Shown here piece by piece: positions 3,032-9,166 of a stretch of 9,166 nt of DNA. This DNA is from Bryobacterales bacterium (GTDB lineage Bacteria > Acidobacteriota > Terriglobia > Bryobacterales > Bryobacteraceae), in NCBI GenBank assembly GCA_003132865.1, contig PKYZ01000225.1, positions 1,842 to 11,007 on the forward strand, written 5' to 3'. The notes beneath the pieces are model-generated. The model did no database searches, had not been told where the DNA came from, and worked only from the letters and a program-made list of their open reading frames with translations. How positions within the stretch are numbered: the stretch's first letter is position 1; each line of letters starts with the position of its first letter. The position numbers were made by a program, and so were the translations under genes.

Positions 3032-3450
3032 TCCGCGAAGTTTTTCACAACGAAGAGGAAGAATCGCTTCCTCAACGCCTTTGCGACCTGATGTTCCTTG
3101 GGCACGAACGCCAGACTACCCGTTCGTCCCTTCAAACCCTTGACCTCCGCCGCCAGAAAATCTCTGCGCGCCCGGACCGCAGTCGAAAATCGTACCCGCA
3201 CCCAAGCCGCGTTGTGCTCTCCGGAGTACAGTCTTTGAATCGGGAAGCCGGGGCTGAACCGGCTCGAAATACTGTTCGGCTGCTAGAGGACGGCCGAGGT
3301 GGATGACGCCGGCAATCCCAACGAAAAGGTCCAGCCGCCCGACGCCGGTTACGGGTTCTTCTGGCGTCTCGATACCTGCTGGCGATTTGAGGAACGGGAC
3401 GGCGGCGCGTACGCCGAATGCCGCGCGATTTCCCTAACGCGCGACATCCC
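3032..3450 (+). repeat. Large direct repeat, copy A (partner at 5547-5932)
   Basis: Copy A starts at TCCGCGAAG and ends at GCGACATCCC; the same landmarks in the same order and orientation bound copy B. The first part (to about 3132) agrees with copy B apart from scattered substitutions and small indels. Copy A then carries about 36 extra bases before AGTCGAAAATCGTACCCGCA. The middle (about 3203-3276) is unrelated in the two copies; here it has a short hairpin (AGCCGG/CCGGCT, 3246-3264). The last part (3277-3450) is about 96% identical to copy B by hand count. Indels in the first part argue that it is not coding. Copies A and B bracket the coiled-coil relic and the carbonic anhydrase. Confidence 0.85.
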
Positions 3451-4770: not shown

Positions 4771-5493
4771 CTATTTTTTCGGGAGTTCGACACTCCCTTT
4801 GTCAAGGTCGTAGTATGCGGGAACAACGCTCACGCCGCTTAGCAGACCGAGAACTTGGAGATCTTCCTTAACCTTTTCGGTCATATTGTCAATGTTTTTC
4901 CGCACAACTCGTTCCCACTCCGTCGCAGTGATCTCCGGAACCGGGTGGGGTATGCACTCCTTCCGCCGCCAACCCTCCGGGACCGCCGGTCTGATCAGCG
5001 TCCAGAGCGTAAGCAGGTGCTCTTTTGGCTCGGGACAGAACGCCGCTTCCACAGCACCGCATCGCTTGTGGCCCATGATCACGACGAGCTTCGCCCCGAG
5101 ATGATGTGGATCGACAGCATACTCGATGCTGCCCAGAACACCGGGTGTGGCAACATTTCCGGCCTCCCGAACTACGAACAGGTCGCCGATACCCAGGTCG
5201 AAGATTACCTCGGGCGGAACGCGGGAATCTGAGCAGCTCAAGATAACCGCAATCGGCTTCTGAGGGCAACAGGCCGAATTTATCCCACATTCGACGGTCT
5301 GATGCCAGTGTTCAGCGCCGCCTCTCTTGATGAATCGGGCGTTGCCTGCAAGCAGCGCGTCGAGCGGCGGGACGCGGGTGATGGACGGCTCGCAAAGTTT
5401 ACACGGAGTGCTACAGGCCGGGGGTTGCTGCGCCGCCAAGAACGAGGCAAACGCGACTAGGCAGAGCAACAATGCCGCACAGGTTTTGAGCAT
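4771..5493 (-). CDS. Secreted beta-class carbonic anhydrase
   Basis: The enzyme interconverts CO2 and bicarbonate using zinc. The 240-residue product has a hydrophobic signal peptide (MLKTCAALLLCLVAFASFLA), so it is probably periplasmic. Zinc ligands are visible as C87 in CSDSR (87-91) and H142 and C145 in GHKRCGAV (141-148); D89 and R91 are the usual catalytic dyad. The C-terminal PAYYDLDKGSVEL (225-237) is also typical. No lipobox is apparent. An unusual Cys cluster, CSTPCKLC (27-34), follows the signal peptide, and further cysteines at 69, 75 and 76 could form disulfides outside the cytoplasm. The ATG at 5493 is preferred because it places the signal peptide at the N-terminus; the frame extends upstream to 5565, but that part runs into the direct repeat. 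The gene stands alone, divergent from the downstream cluster and between the two direct repeats. No clear Shine-Dalgarno is seen. Confidence 0.92.
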   Translation of the reverse strand: MLKTCAALLLCLVAFASFLAAQQPPACSTPCKLCEPSITRVPPLDALLAGNARFIKRGGAEHWHQTVECGINSACCPQKPIAVILSCSDSRVPPEVIFDLGIGDLFVVREAGNVATPGVLGSIEYAVDPHHLGAKLVVIMGHKRCGAVEAAFCPEPKEHLLTLWTLIRPAVPEGWRRKECIPHPVPEITATEWERVVRKNIDNMTEKVKEDLQVLGLLSGVSVVPAYYDLDKGSVELPKK

Positions 5494-5500
5494 ACAGCGA

Positions 5501-5529
5501 AGTGTACTACCGAGAATCCACGCGCGCAA
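5501..5529 (-). promoter_or_regulatory. Possible promoter of the carbonic anhydrase gene
   Basis: On the minus strand TTGCGC (5524-5529) and TACACT (5501-5506) are separated by exactly 17 bases; each matches four of six positions of the sigma-70 consensus. The -10 box ends only seven bases before the ATG, so transcription from it would give an almost leaderless mRNA, in keeping with the missing Shine-Dalgarno. A weak match in GC-rich DNA could be chance. Confidence 0.25.
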
Positions 5530-5546
5530 GGCGGTGCGACATGCGG

Positions 5547-5932
5547 TCCGCGAAGCTTTCCACAACGAAGAGGAAGAATCGGTTGCTCAACGCCTCTTGC
5601 GACTTGATGTTCCTTGGGTGCGAACGCCAAAGAACCCGTTCGTTCCTTCAAACCCTTGACAGTCGAAAATCGTACCCGCACCGATGTGGCGCACGCTTTT
5701 AGCGTGCCGCGGCGGACTTCAGTCTGCCGTCTGCCGCGCTTAGGAATTGTCAATGTTTACCCGGCTGCTAGAGGGCCGAGGTGGATGACGCCGGCAAGCC
5801 CAACGAAAAGGTCCGGCCGCCCGACGCCGGTTACGGGTTCTTGTGGCGTCTCGATACCTACTGGCGATTTGAGGAACGGGACGGCGGCGCGTACACCGAA
5901 TGCCGGGCGATTTCCCTAACGCGCGACATCCC
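5547..5932 (+). repeat. Large direct repeat, copy B (partner at 3032-3450)
   Basis: It has the same order of blocks as copy A: TCCGCGAAG, CACAACGAAGAGGAAGAATC, GATGTTCCTTGGG, TTCAAACCCTTGAC, then AGTCGAAAATCGTACCCGCA, and after a divergent middle (about 5684-5761) the highly conserved end from 5762. The ~36-base insert of copy A is missing. The divergent middle holds a pair of hairpins not present in copy A. Similarity stops sharply at GACATCCC (5932), 34 bases before the start of the three-gene cluster. Its left end lies just upstream of the carbonic anhydrase start. Confidence 0.85.
5691..5729. repeat. REP-like tandem pair of hairpins
   Basis: The first hairpin is GCACGCT-TTT-AGCGTGC (5691-5707), a perfect 7-base stem. 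The second is CGGCGGACT-TC-AGTCTGCCG (5710-5729), a stem with one G:U wobble and a tight loop. Two GC-rich stem-loops side by side in a noncoding spacer look like bacterial REP elements. They replace unrelated sequence in the otherwise matching copy A, so they may have been inserted there. Confidence 0.5.
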
Positions 5933-5966: not shown

Positions 5967-6770
5967 ATGGGCCGCAATCAGTGGAAAGCGAACCTCGACG
6001 AGCTTTGCCGCAGCCTGGAGCACTATGCCTCGGACCTGCCCGCGGCTCCGAGTTCCTCCGCGACGGCAGCGCGTTTGAGTGACTCCCTTTATCTGGCAAA
6101 CTCGGCTTCGGATGCGAATTTCTCGGCCATCTGCGCCAGCGGGTATCTGTTTTCGGCGGCGCGCCTCGGTAAATCGATGCCGCCAACGTGCCCCGAGATG
6201 ATACTGGGGACGGCCGGCTCTGTGTTCTTCTATCTTTCACCGTTCCGATATCCCAACACCAACTGCGGCTTACTGCTTGCCCATAGCCTGGAATCGGAGC
6301 ACGAAGATGACGGCGTGGCCACACCTTTCGATTCCGGCGGCCTGGTAAAGAAGTTTACCCGGCGCAATCCCGCCGAGTCGCCGCAAGAATTCTTATCCCG
6401 CCACGAGTTGCCGATTCCGGAGCACCGCCGCTATCTCTGCCGGTCCATGGACGCCCTCTTTCACAAACCTGAGGACTACGTAGAAGGGTCGCATCCGCAG
6501 TGGCCGGGACCCATTGGCTTGGATGGAGGAGACCAACGGCGCTGGACGCATGAAGTGCGAATCCCAGATCGAGTCCCGGTGCGTGGCAGCCATTTGCAGG
6601 CGGCCTTCGCTCCCAAAGCCCGCGTGGCAGCAAACCCGGCTGTGGAAGATCTCTTTCAGTGGTGCGCCACAGAGGGCGTGGACCGCATATCCTTTGACAC
6701 GCCGCGCGGGGATGACTTCGAAGCGTTGCGGCGGGAGTGCCGCGATTATATCCGCCGCAAGCTATACTAG
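5967..6770 (+). CDS. Uncharacterised protein, possible DarT-like ADP-ribosyltransferase fold
   Basis: The 267-residue product has no signal peptide or membrane helix, so it should be cytosolic. I do not recognise a named family, but three blocks appear in the order seen in ADP-ribosyltransferases related to DarT. LYLANSASDANFSAICASGY (41-60) resembles the 'LYHxTxxxNLxSIxxxGxL' motif. VFFYLSPFRYPNT (86-98) resembles 'VPFYFxPRSPM'. RRWTHEVRIPDRVPV (191-205), with E196, resembles the 'AEFLVxDxVP' strand that carries the catalytic Glu. The expected first-motif His is replaced by Leu43, so activity may be lost or the resemblance may mislead. The C-terminal helix (FEALRRECRDYIRRKL) is amphipathic. 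The ATG at 5967 is the first after the relic's stop; the Shine-Dalgarno is weak. The next gene starts after seven bases. The reading frame is certain; the fold is inference. Confidence 0.85.
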   Translation: MGRNQWKANLDELCRSLEHYASDLPAAPSSSATAARLSDSLYLANSASDANFSAICASGYLFSAARLGKSMPPTCPEMILGTAGSVFFYLSPFRYPNTNCGLLLAHSLESEHEDDGVATPFDSGGLVKKFTRRNPAESPQEFLSRHELPIPEHRRYLCRSMDALFHKPEDYVEGSHPQWPGPIGLDGGDQRRWTHEVRIPDRVPVRGSHLQAAFAPKARVAANPAVEDLFQWCATEGVDRISFDTPRGDDFEALRRECRDYIRRKLY

Positions 6771-6777
6771 ATTTTCC

Positions 6778-7440
6778 ATGCCAACCCAGTGGAACGTCGA
6801 TGACCTCGATATCGTGGGCTACGGAAACGTCCTCAATGACGACATGCTGCCTTCCGTGGTGCCACCCGTGTTCCGCTTGAGGAGCGATGCCACAAGGGCG
6901 TTGCTTCCCCCTTATTTTTTCAACGCTGGTTTCTTGTGCAACGCCACCGAAGTCTCCCAGTCTGAATTGGAGGATTTGAGAGACTCCAACGAGATCACTC
7001 TTTTCGATGATATCTTCGCCGCACGCGCCGGTTTTGAACTCTGGATCGACCAGGCGTTTCAGCGGCATTACCAACCACGCGACGAGGCAAACAGGGAGCT
7101 GAGTCGCATAGCGGCCGAGGCGATCGAAAATGCGGAGGAGGCACTGCGAGAAGGCAACCTCGAAGAGGCGGACCGTCTCAGCGGAGTAGCTATATCAGCG
7201 GACGACACGAAGCTAGAACCGCTGGCAATTAAAGCTGCGATTCGCCGGCGCAAGGGAAACGACGCCGGTGAGCGGCTCATGACTGAACTGGCTGCACCGG
7301 TGCTGGAAGAAAGACTGTTCAAGCTGCTGGTTGACGATTACTGCCGCGGCGCCGCCTGGAAACAACCAATTGAACCGGCGCAGGCTCACGTTACGCACCG
7401 GCCAATGCAGGGGATAGCCTGCCTGCGCGCAGCCGCGTAA
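6778..7440 (+). CDS. Uncharacterised helical protein, middle gene of the three-gene cluster
   Basis: The 220-residue product is soluble and unrecognised. Its first 95 residues, with LPPYFFNAGFLCNATE (43-58) and an acidic stretch SELEDLRDSNEITLFDDIF (62-80), may form a small globular domain. Residues about 101-190 are strongly helical and alanine/glutamate-rich, with a TPR-like pair around AEEALREGNLEEADRLSGVA (119-138). The final ~25 residues lack clear structure. The ATG at 6778 lies seven bases after the upstream stop; the frame is open farther upstream to 6514 but would overlap the first gene by over 250 bases, so the internal ATG is preferred. The stop is five bases before the ATPase gene. 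An adaptor between the first protein and the ATPase is a guess from position only. Confidence 0.8.
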   Translation: MPTQWNVDDLDIVGYGNVLNDDMLPSVVPPVFRLRSDATRALLPPYFFNAGFLCNATEVSQSELEDLRDSNEITLFDDIFAARAGFELWIDQAFQRHYQPRDEANRELSRIAAEAIENAEEALREGNLEEADRLSGVAISADDTKLEPLAIKAAIRRRKGNDAGERLMTELAAPVLEERLFKLLVDDYCRGAAWKQPIEPAQAHVTHRPMQGIACLRAAA

Positions 7441-7445
7441 AAGCG

Positions 7446-9166
7446 ATGCCCCTCCCGTACGTTTTTACCTTCTACAGCTACAAGGGTGGCGTAGGCCGGA
7501 GCTTGGCTGTCATGAACGTGGCCTACACACTTGCGGGGTGGGGCCGGCACGTTCTGATGGTGGACATGGACCTGGAGGCTCCGGGAATTAGTGGCTTCCT
7601 GCAAAGAAGTAACGAGCTTGCCGAACCAGAGTCTGCCCATCCGAAAGATATCCTGACCCTCCTTGGGGAAGGGGCCAGGGCGCTGCGGGATGGTAGCGCG
7701 ACGGACGAAATCGAACGCAACCTTCCTCCGGTGTCCAATTACATCCGAGCGGTGGCCGAAGAAAAACTGACCGCCCTCCGGCCGCAACTAGGGCTGTTGG
7801 GCCGCTTGGACGTCCTGGGCACGGATCTCTCTCGCGACTACAACGCGCGTTTGGCACAACTGGGCCTGCAGGACCTTCCGCAAGAACGGTTGATTGCGCT
7901 GAGCCGCCTGCTCCACCAGTATTTCAAGGCGCAGGTCTTCCCGCACCGGCCGCTCGGTATCGAGATCTTCGAGCCGCCCATCCAGACACCATACGACTAC
8001 GTTCTCGTGGATAGCCGCACTGGGATAACGGAGATCGGCGGACTGTGTGTGGGCCCGCTGGCCGATCGGCTCGTCGTGATCACAGGCTTGAACGACCAGA
8101 ACGTGTCCGGTACGCTGAGCTTCCTGGAAGAAGCCGGCATCCAGCCAAAATCGCGATCCGAAAAAGACCCACCGTGGGACGATGCCGACGCGGTTAGCGT
8201 CGGGGTTGCCGACAGCCAGAGCCTTGGCCCCAAGCCGACGATTCTGGTCGCCAGTCCGGTGCCAGCCGGTGAGATCGCCTACAAGCGGCAGCGGCTGAGT
8301 GAACTCGAGAGCCTCCTTGGCATCCGTCCGGTATCGCTCTCCTATCATCCGCAGATGGCCCTGATGGAGAGTGTCTTCGTGCGCGATTACCCGGAGGAAT
8401 ACCTAGCGCAGGAGTACAAGGGGTTGGCGACGAGGGTGATGGCACAGGTCAATGACGATCCGCAAGGCCTGGTGTTCGAGGCCGGGGTTCTGTGGAACGA
8501 GAAGAAGGAACCGGCCAAAGCGATCGCCCGCGCGCTGCGGCTCGCCTCTCACGTTCCGGAACTGGGCGCCCCACTGCTTGGACTGTTCTCGCAACGCAGC
8601 CCAGAGTCCGGCATTCCGGAGATGCGGCAACTGTACGCTGTTCTCTCCCGGAATGCGGCAGCGAGGCTGGCCGCACTCAACAACTGGGCCAATGCGCTAC
8701 AGCTCCTGGCTACGACGAAGGTGGGGGAGGAAGCCAACCTGCTGTTTGCGGAGGCGGGCGACAAGTACGCCGAGGCGCTGCGGCTGAAGCCGGACAATCA
8801 CGAGGCGCTCAACAACTGGGGTAATGCGCTGTCCGATCAAGCCAAGATGAATGCTGGGGAGGAAGCCGACCGGCTGTTTGCGGAGGCGTGCGGCAAGTAC
8901 GCCGAGGCGCTGCGGCTGAAGCCGGACTATCATGCTGCGCTCTTCAACTGGGGCGCGGCGCTGTCCGACCACGCCACGACGAAGGTGGGGGAGGAAGCCG
9001 ACCGTCTGTTTGCGGAGGCGGGCGGCAAGTTCGCCGAGGCGCTGCGGCTGAAGCCGGACGATGATGAGACACTCTACAACTGGGGCAATGCGCTGTACGA
9101 TCAGGCCAAGACGAAGGTGGGAGGGGAAGCCGACCGGTTGTTTACGGAGGCGTGCGGCAAGTACGC
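7446..9166 (+). CDS. KGGVGR-variant ParA/MinD-like ATPase fused to TPR-type repeats (partial, 3' end beyond window)
   Basis: 573 residues are visible with no stop. The N-terminus FTFYSYKGGVGRSLAVMN (7-24) is a deviant Walker A: the signature Lys13 is kept, but the second Lys of the usual KGGxGKT/S is Arg18. VLMVDMDLEAPG (36-47) is the switch I/Walker A' strand and YDYVLVDSRTGITEIGG (183-199) the Walker B region, both normal for SIMIBI ATPases. A helical insert lies between (about 60-180). The ATPase part ends near 335. It is followed by a linker and then by 44-residue repeats of the type ADRLFAEACGKYAEALRLKP, DYHAALFNWGAALSDHA from about 410 to the window end. Proteins with this motif carry names such as 'KGGVGR-motif variant AAA ATPase'; their biochemical role is poorly known. 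The ATG at 7446 follows the upstream stop by five bases. It is probably a cytosolic regulator or sensor in the cluster. Confidence 0.9.
   Translation, partial: MPLPYVFTFYSYKGGVGRSLAVMNVAYTLAGWGRHVLMVDMDLEAPGISGFLQRSNELAEPESAHPKDILTLLGEGARALRDGSATDEIERNLPPVSNYIRAVAEEKLTALRPQLGLLGRLDVLGTDLSRDYNARLAQLGLQDLPQERLIALSRLLHQYFKAQVFPHRPLGIEIFEPPIQTPYDYVLVDSRTGITEIGGLCVGPLADRLVVITGLNDQNVSGTLSFLEEAGIQPKSRSEKDPPWDDADAVSVGVADSQSLGPKPTILVASPVPAGEIAYKRQRLSELESLLGIRPVSLSYHPQMALMESVFVRDYPEEYLAQEYKGLATRVMAQVNDDPQGLVFEAGVLWNEKKEPAKAIARALRLASHVPELGAPLLGLFSQRSPESGIPEMRQLYAVLSRNAAARLAALNNWANALQLLATTKVGEEANLLFAEAGDKYAEALRLKPDNHEALNNWGNALSDQAKMNAGEEADRLFAEACGKYAEALRLKPDYHAALFNWGAALSDHATTKVGEEADRLFAEAGGKFAEALRLKPDDDETLYNWGNALYDQAKTKVGGEADRLFTEACGKY
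8733..9166 (+). repeat. 132-base in-frame tandem repeats in the ATPase-TPR gene
   Basis: Units start at 8733, 8865, 8997 and 9129, an exact 132-base (44-codon) period, with the fourth cut by the window edge. Units two and three differ at about 19 of 132 positions by hand count (about 86% identity). Differences cluster in the second half of the unit (the helix faces near 'DYHAALF' and 'DDDETLY'), while the start is nearly unchanged. A partial related unit precedes them (about 8673-8732). This points to recent expansion by duplication or slippage. Confidence 0.9.

Follow-up and report, generated by a model that had tools for sequence, protein, structure and literature searches.

We analysed a stretch of 9,166 nucleotides from a Bryobacterales bacterium (contig PKYZ01000225.1, positions 1,842 to 11,007; hereafter the window), which ends in three plus-strand genes that a first-pass annotation had singled out as a candidate conflict system. 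These three genes form a real, conserved module. Gene 1 (5967..6770, + strand, 267 amino acids) is predicted to encode a toxin with an ADP-ribosyltransferase (ART) fold, gene 2 (6778..7440, + strand, 220 amino acids) encodes a proposed labile antitoxin or adaptor, and gene 3 (7446..9166, + strand) encodes a ParA/MinD-like ATPase of the KGGVGR type with C-terminal tetratricopeptide repeats (TPRs). The coordinates confirm the annotated gaps of 7 and 5 bases between the successive open reading frames; the third frame (7446-9164, 573 amino acids) is open at the window end, and the gene continues past it. The trio probably forms an antiviral defence system, and its annotation as a candidate conflict system is supported indirectly by the toxin fold, the patchy occurrence, the decayed copies and the sister ATPases found with TIR or PDC-M28 genes. 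The reading that we favour, with a confidence that stops a little short of an even bet, is that of an ART toxin, a labile antitoxin and an ATPase/TPR guard whose logic would resemble that of the toxin-antitoxin-chaperone (TAC) system CmdTAC without SecB.

Conservation and distribution of the trio

We read 21 loci with profile hidden Markov models (HMMs), namely 17 from a scan of genome contigs, the loci L099, L100 and L101, and the window itself. Gene calls in these loci are rough, since they rely on open frames and on codon-usage scoring for which the genes of the trio served as the training set. In all 21 loci the ART gene, whole or broken, adjoins gene 2 (18 loci, by HMM) or a substitute gene (3 loci). 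The substitutes of L015 and L017 encode proteins that share a LEIVG/IEIIG start, and that of L016 encodes a 248-amino-acid protein without clear similarity. In 13 of the 21 loci, a KGGVGR ATPase domain that spans most of the profile comes next; L008, L013, L014 and L099 are without an ATPase match, L100 holds fragments only, and L006 and L017 end inside gene 2. Spacing between the genes in 13 loci ranges from -4 to +10 bases, two of the starts being approximate. L016 (9965-12890), from a Myxococcales bin, combines a distant ART, the 248-amino-acid gene and a KaiC-like ATPase (PF06745, 9.1e-7), the gene ends overlapping. Because L016 carries a KaiC-like ATPase in this position, the third slot may accept a different P-loop ATPase.

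The ART loci belong to Acidobacteriota, Verrucomicrobiota, Lentisphaeria, Planctomycetota and Myxococcales, and the relatives are mostly from Acidobacteriota. Because the neighbourhood of ART and gene 2 recurs in loci of several phyla, the three-gene cluster is more than chance. Within Bryobacterales the ART is present in 9 of 200 genomes and gene 2 adjoins it in all nine, which, together with the ATPase that follows in 13 loci, bears out the conserved adjacency that the first-pass annotation had suggested checking. When 396 Acidobacteriota genomes were drawn around G002, the genome that supplied the query, the ART and gene 2 were each matched once, both of them in G002. Because few candidates were scored per genome (the best 6 or 7 in the 396-genome draw, at most 12 in the 200 Bryobacterales), these rarity figures may be low. 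Among the 17 genomes reached via ART loci, 14 carry gene 2, which occupies 15 places in all, and an ART adjoins it at every one of these places (15/15); gene 2 without an ART was sought only in the 396-genome draw.

A module that regulates or develops the cell in its ordinary life, serving for example ParA-like positioning or timing and including an ART that modifies a host protein, would fit the flanking genes of the fetched loci, which mostly look like ordinary chromosomal genes. It would also fit the lack of any copy in collections of plasmids (72,556 records), phages (50,697 records) and viral contigs (two peptide patterns only), a result by which carriage on mobile elements was rejected. 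Because a housekeeping role predicts steady vertical presence, the very patchy occurrence in 9/200 Bryobacterales and 1/396 Acidobacteriota genomes counts against this explanation, as do the spread over several phyla and several decayed copies, and we give it a slim chance.

Predicted properties of the three proteins

According to its AlphaFold2 model (pLDDT 94), gene 1 has an ADP-ribosyltransferase fold that matches solved ARTs across most of the domain; the top solved-structure matches are DarT toxins and SopF/OspC/CopC effectors. SopF, OspC3 and CopC, which are protein-modifying effectors, are about as near to gene 1 in fold as the DarT structures. All 26 diverse family members that were aligned keep F121, D122, S123, G124, L126, R154, Y171, R191, E196 and R198, and the first four of these, which lie in the PFDSG motif (residues 120-124; 6324..6338, + strand), are invariant also in ten distant members (alignment A4). 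E196, encoded at 6552..6554 (+ strand), opens a predicted strand at residues 196-200 of the model. In DarT, the strand that follows the ARTT loop begins with the catalytic glutamate (E152 in DarT1, E160 in DarT2; PMC11543638), and we propose E196 as its counterpart.

By sequence, gene 1 stands apart from DarT. It has no match to PF14487 or to any other Pfam model at E values up to 1, and an hmmsearch of alignment A1 against PDB sequences gave no relevant match. Residues 47-84 (alignment A1) show no conserved arginine like R51/R52 of the DarT NAD-binding loop, the alignment to the DarT profile being weak. PF14487 matches occur in 24 of 120 Bryobacterales genomes, none of which is an ART-bearing genome. 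DarT membership was rejected on the sequence profile and on these disjoint sets of genomes, and the annotated possible ART with DarT-like blocks therefore survives as an ART by predicted fold and not as a DarT by sequence. No precomputed Pfam match was found among the 120 of 368 relatives listed, and the trio appears to add a new ART family without a Pfam model. A fold search in viral models returned 16 proteins at E 0.001, mostly unnamed and belonging to phages and large viruses; these matches show solely that the ART fold is common there.

The AlphaFold2 model of gene 2 (pLDDT 88.6, pTM 0.77) has residues 1-100 folded into ten strands and a single helix, whereas from residue 101 onward its secondary structure is purely helical, so that the small helical protein of the first-pass annotation is helical in its latter part and not in its first 100 residues. 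Residues 108-187 in the back half match TPR proteins (VIA-align covers the TPR part only), and disorder is predicted close to the C-terminus, with pLDDT below 50 at residues 196-207 and 216-220. Assignment of gene 2 to a known fold was rejected: Foldseek gave no match at E 0.001, and the front half had no solved-structure match within the whole-protein model. Pfam searches at E up to 1 found no macrodomain or NADAR match in gene 2.

These results bear on a two-component system of the DarTG kind, in which the ART would modify DNA bases, gene 2 would act as a binding antitoxin and the ATPase would be an accessory. Gene 1 finds some of its best fold matches in DarT structures, and L013 has an ART and gene 2 without the ATPase, as this explanation would allow. 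We nevertheless regard it as improbable: gene 1 lacks a PF14487 match, none of the 24 DarT-matching genomes among 120 Bryobacterales is an ART genome, gene 2 lacks a macrodomain or NADAR match, and SopF, OspC3 and CopC, which act on proteins, are about equally close in fold.

We identified 154 homologues of gene 2. In the window, the protein ends in the tail PMQGIACLRAAA followed by the stop codon (7402..7440, + strand), in which a PMxx[VIM]A pattern is followed by a terminal -AA. An -AA ending is present in 92 of the 121 listed homologues compared with 13 of 343 control genes of the fetched loci and 1 of 121 ARTs at hand, and PM..[VIM]A occurs within the last 40 residues of 95 of the 121 homologues compared with 6 of the 343 controls. 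When the sequences with the tail motif were clustered, -AA was the ending of 25 of 34 clusters at an identity of 75% and of 13 of 18 at an identity of 65%. Because six of eight transfer-messenger RNA (tmRNA) loci from ART-bearing genomes give tags ending in YAA, FAA or LAA (of the other two, one yielded no tag and the second an odd one), the C-terminal degradation tag of these hosts takes the form -AA. Both the -AA tail on gene 2 homologues and the matching tmRNA tags are new observations here. On this basis we propose that the tail is a ClpXP-type degron, a peptide bound by the TPRs of the ATPase, or both. One divergent homologue, that of L013 (994-2283; 429 amino acids), has a probable membrane helix and an extra C-terminal part, and stands without an -AA tail and without an ATPase.

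Gene 3 matches the NCBIfam model NF047398 (AAA_KGGVGR) over residues 4-229 with 119.9 bits, above the curated cut-off of 90, and by this profile it is a member of the KGGVGR-motif ATPase family, as annotated. The expanded TPR-type repeats were likewise recovered: a TPR_11 match (9.2e-9) lies behind the ATPase domain, and 132-bp tandem units (8714..9166, + strand) amount to 3.4 copies inside the window. Tandem arrays were found in the third gene of 9 of the 13 loci and vary in copy number by locus from 2.0 to 8.0, with a period of 135 in L010 and repeats up to 97% alike in L007; no array was detected in L003, L009, L012 and L015. In L001 and L003, the repeat part after the ATPase domain runs on in another frame. 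None of genes 1-3 has a SecB match (Pfam, E up to 1).

Of 120 Bryobacterales genomes, 18 have an NF047398 match above the cut-off. We read 25 regions around KGGVGR ATPases outside the trio (L074-L098). A TIR_2 gene adjoins a KGGVGR or KGGTGR ATPase in eight of these regions (L081, L083, L086, L087, L089, L090, L091 and L095), which is a second probable effector-ATPase pairing. PADLOC models of PDC-M28 matched in five regions, with B in L074, L075, L076, L078 and L079, and with C in at least four and A in at least three, the neighbours being partly scanned. In a tree of 34 ATPases, which carried a long-branch warning, above all for L088, the 13 trio ATPases form one clade with a support of 100/100. 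Because the trio, TIR-linked and M28-linked ATPases fall in separate clades of this tree, the KGGVGR ATPases appear to be separate lineages, each tied to its own partner. The ATPase of L083, unlabelled in the tree, grouped with the TIR-linked ones, and a TIR gene was then found there. In L092 (1-5597), a carbon-nitrogen hydrolase gene and a winged-helix gene adjoin a long KGGVGR ATPase; L093 and L096 resemble L092 in gene order, with the hydrolase identity of their partners not confirmed.

Decay pattern, proposed mechanism and its main rival

The ART lies in a single open frame in all 13 loci with the ATPase and is broken in four of the five without it (L008, L014, L099 and L100; Fisher 0.0016), a count that omits L006 and L017, where the contigs end, and L016, which has the other ATPase. 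L014 and L100 keep gene 2 whole next to a broken ART; the converse arrangement, a broken gene 2 next to an unbroken ART, is absent from all 21 loci, although in two of them the contig stops within gene 2. If the toxin could not be tolerated without both partners, the ART would be expected to break where the ATPase is missing or broken and to be outlasted by gene 2, as is seen here.

We propose the following sequence of events. In the resting cell, gene 2 would keep the ART inactive. Its flexible tail, PMxx[VIM]A...AA, resembles the tmRNA tags recognised by ClpXP and would mark gene 2 for degradation. The TPR array of the KGGVGR ATPase would bind gene 2, perhaps at this tail, and would thereby keep the degron hidden, provided that the ATPase remains free and in the appropriate nucleotide state. 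If the fast-changing TPR array were then engaged by a viral product, or by some other stress, the ATPase would be drawn off gene 2, upon which gene 2 would be degraded and the ART freed. Using NAD+, the freed ART would ADP-ribosylate an essential or viral target, either nucleic acid or protein, and growth and virus production would stop.

The main rival is an NLR-like abortive-infection receptor, in which the KGGVGR ATPase/TPR protein would sense a viral product, oligomerise and activate the ART via gene 2 as an adaptor, the ART being harmless beforehand. TIR genes adjoin related ATPases in 8 of the 25 non-trio regions with no third small gene needed, the expanding, near-identical repeats (97% in L007) would suit a fast-evolving recognition surface, and the trio ATPases form a clade tied to their own partner, all of which is as such a receptor would have it. 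It leaves the -AA tails of gene 2 unexplained. Because an effector lacking its activator would be harmless, it also fails to account for the broken ART in most loci that lack the ATPase, and we judge it unlikely, if considerably less so than the DarTG-like and regulatory explanations.

Several observations weigh against a toxin restrained by gene 2 and the ATPase. With regard to the fold, TM-scores of gene 1 against DarT, normalised by gene 1, are 0.40-0.44, and a profile-profile comparison of 26 ARTs with 15 Bryobacterales DarTs was weak and local to the first two motifs (probability 0.8%, E 0.068). With regard to the tail, counting per locus gives an -AA ending in only 9 of the 17 gene 2 proteins listed; those of L002, L005, L009, L013, L014, L015, L100 and L101 lack it, and five of these are accompanied by the ATPase (L002, ending in SVN; L005, KYV; L009, CAL; L101, ARA; and L015, AVA). 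The decay pattern has an exception in L013, whose ART is unbroken without an ATPase beside a longer gene 2 with a probable membrane helix, and counting L016, where an unbroken ART stands with the KaiC-like ATPase, gives 4 of 6 broken. The broken ARTs could also reflect ordinary decay of whole operons or errors of metagenome assembly. Distances among 12 loci are correlated between ART and gene 2 (r 0.93), ART and ATPase (0.93) and gene 2 and ATPase (0.87), values that 0 of 2000 label shuffles reach, and they could be explained by shared host ancestry alone, kinship not being controlled. Finally, clear defence genes or modules stand beside few loci only. The first-pass annotation had proposed to look for known defence genes nearby; such cases proved rare, which makes the defence context the weakest line of the case. 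This result comes from a PADLOC scan of 101 proteins. Within 6 kb of the loci 110 genes had been called, of which 12 were removed by hand; the remaining 98 were scanned together with three partner genes of L015 and L016. At 1e-8, 58 PADLOC families matched, and those inspected singly in L009, L010 and L014 (6166-7071) were generic ABC-type or deaminase families.

Genomic context and comparison with known systems

A candidate defence pair matching PADLOC HEC-01A/B lies in L014 (8006-10197, minus strand), about 1.9 kb behind the truncated ART and the whole gene 2. The neighbours of L100 include nucleotidyltransferase/HepT-like genes, and those of L099 an integrase-core transposase gene, a tyrosine recombinase and a PIN gene.

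Immediately before the trio and outside the system, the window holds a second remnant copy (5771..5932, + strand) that is a 96% copy of 3289-3450, which confirms the annotated broken repeat before the cluster. Three shorter matched pieces precede both remnant copies at a spacing of 2480-2516 bases, and the resulting multi-piece copies (3032-3450 and 5547-5932) flank a segment that carries a carbonic anhydrase gene (4771-5565, minus strand; Pro_CA 2e-31), the protein of which starts with a hydrophobic, signal-like stretch. The open reading frames in both copies (WRFEERDGG...) are without a Pfam match at E 0.01. The repeat was considered as an element boundary and rejected, given that none of the fetched loci matches its sequence at E 1e-4 and its frames have no Pfam match; 5771-5932 is a gene remnant and not part of the three-gene system. 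Also upstream of the trio are genes for a major facilitator superfamily (MFS) transporter and for a protein that matches TPRs weakly.

Our literature searches returned no title or opening abstract describing this trio, no paper using the motif name KGGVGR and none using PADLOC's PDC-M28. The trio is not a member of the TAC systems, there being no SecB, and it is neither DarTG nor PDC-M28. The ternary VMAP systems consist of a MoxR ATPase, vWA and VMAP proteins and include MinD/ParA-like effector domains that are called predicted inactive (PMC7159879). They share with the trio the MinD/ParA-like domains and a predicted role in conflict, and they differ from it in that none of vWA, MoxR or VMAP is among the Pfam matches of the three trio proteins. 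PDC-M28, which PADLOC lists as a candidate trio for phage defence (M28A/B/C), is similar in that its B protein is a KGGVGR ATPase, and gene 3 matches the B profile at 2.2e-23, with the best stretch at residues 7-58 only. It differs in that genes 1 and 2 have no M28A or M28C match (PADLOC, E up to 1) and the ATPases lie in separate clades.

TIR proteins are a family of NAD+-using effectors, and their pairing with KGGVGR/KGGTGR ATPases resembles the trio in that an NAD+-using effector family adjoins a KGGVGR-type ATPase. That pair consists of two genes, the searches report no gene 2 homologue there, and its ATPases form a separate clade. DarTG combines the DarT toxin with a DarG macrodomain or NADAR antitoxin (PMC11543638). 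The trio is like it in the predicted fold of gene 1 and in having an ART beside a proposed antitoxin, and differs in that gene 1 has no PF14487 match, gene 2 has no macrodomain or NADAR match and the ATPase is additional; in an alignment that is weak, gene 1 also shows no conserved arginine in the interval from the first motif to the FFY motif, unlike the aligned DarTs.

CmdTAC comprises an ART toxin, an antitoxin and a SecB-like chaperone; its antitoxin CmdA ends in the ClpXP signal LAA, and ClpP degrades CmdA once the phage capsid titrates the chaperone CmdC (PMC11618068). The trio differs from it in having no SecB match and, as its third gene, a KGGVGR ATPase with TPRs; in the fold neighbours of gene 1, which are DarT and SopF/OspC in a comparison made without CmdT; and in the exact LAA, which is not conserved in gene 2 homologues. 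The two are alike in having three genes that include an ART toxin, predicted as such in the trio, and a third protein with the potential to shield the antitoxin; LAA in CmdTAC has a possible equivalent in the mostly -AA tail of gene 2 homologues, proposed to be of the ClpXP type. The parts would also stand in like order, with an ART, a tail-bearing gene 2 and a third protein whose TPRs could bind either the tail or a viral trigger. Somewhat doubtful as it is, and held with less assurance than the general CmdTAC-like logic, the more specific proposal that we put forward is a repeat-tuned, nucleotide-gated release of the toxin. In it, an ATP-dependent KGGVGR ParA-like/TPR protein rather than a SecB-type chaperone would mask the ssrA-like degron of the antitoxin, the restrained toxin would be a DarT/SopF-like ART of a new family, and the trio would be one of several KGGVGR branches that control effectors (ART, TIR and M28). 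NCBIfam names the KGGVGR ATPases by their motif alone, and the trio offers them a testable job in toxin guarding. If the proposal is correct, the repeats of gene 3 would be the site where viral triggers are read, and the principle of the TAC systems, a degron masked by a partner that the virus titrates away, would be independent of SecB and would have arisen here with an ATPase/TPR sensor.

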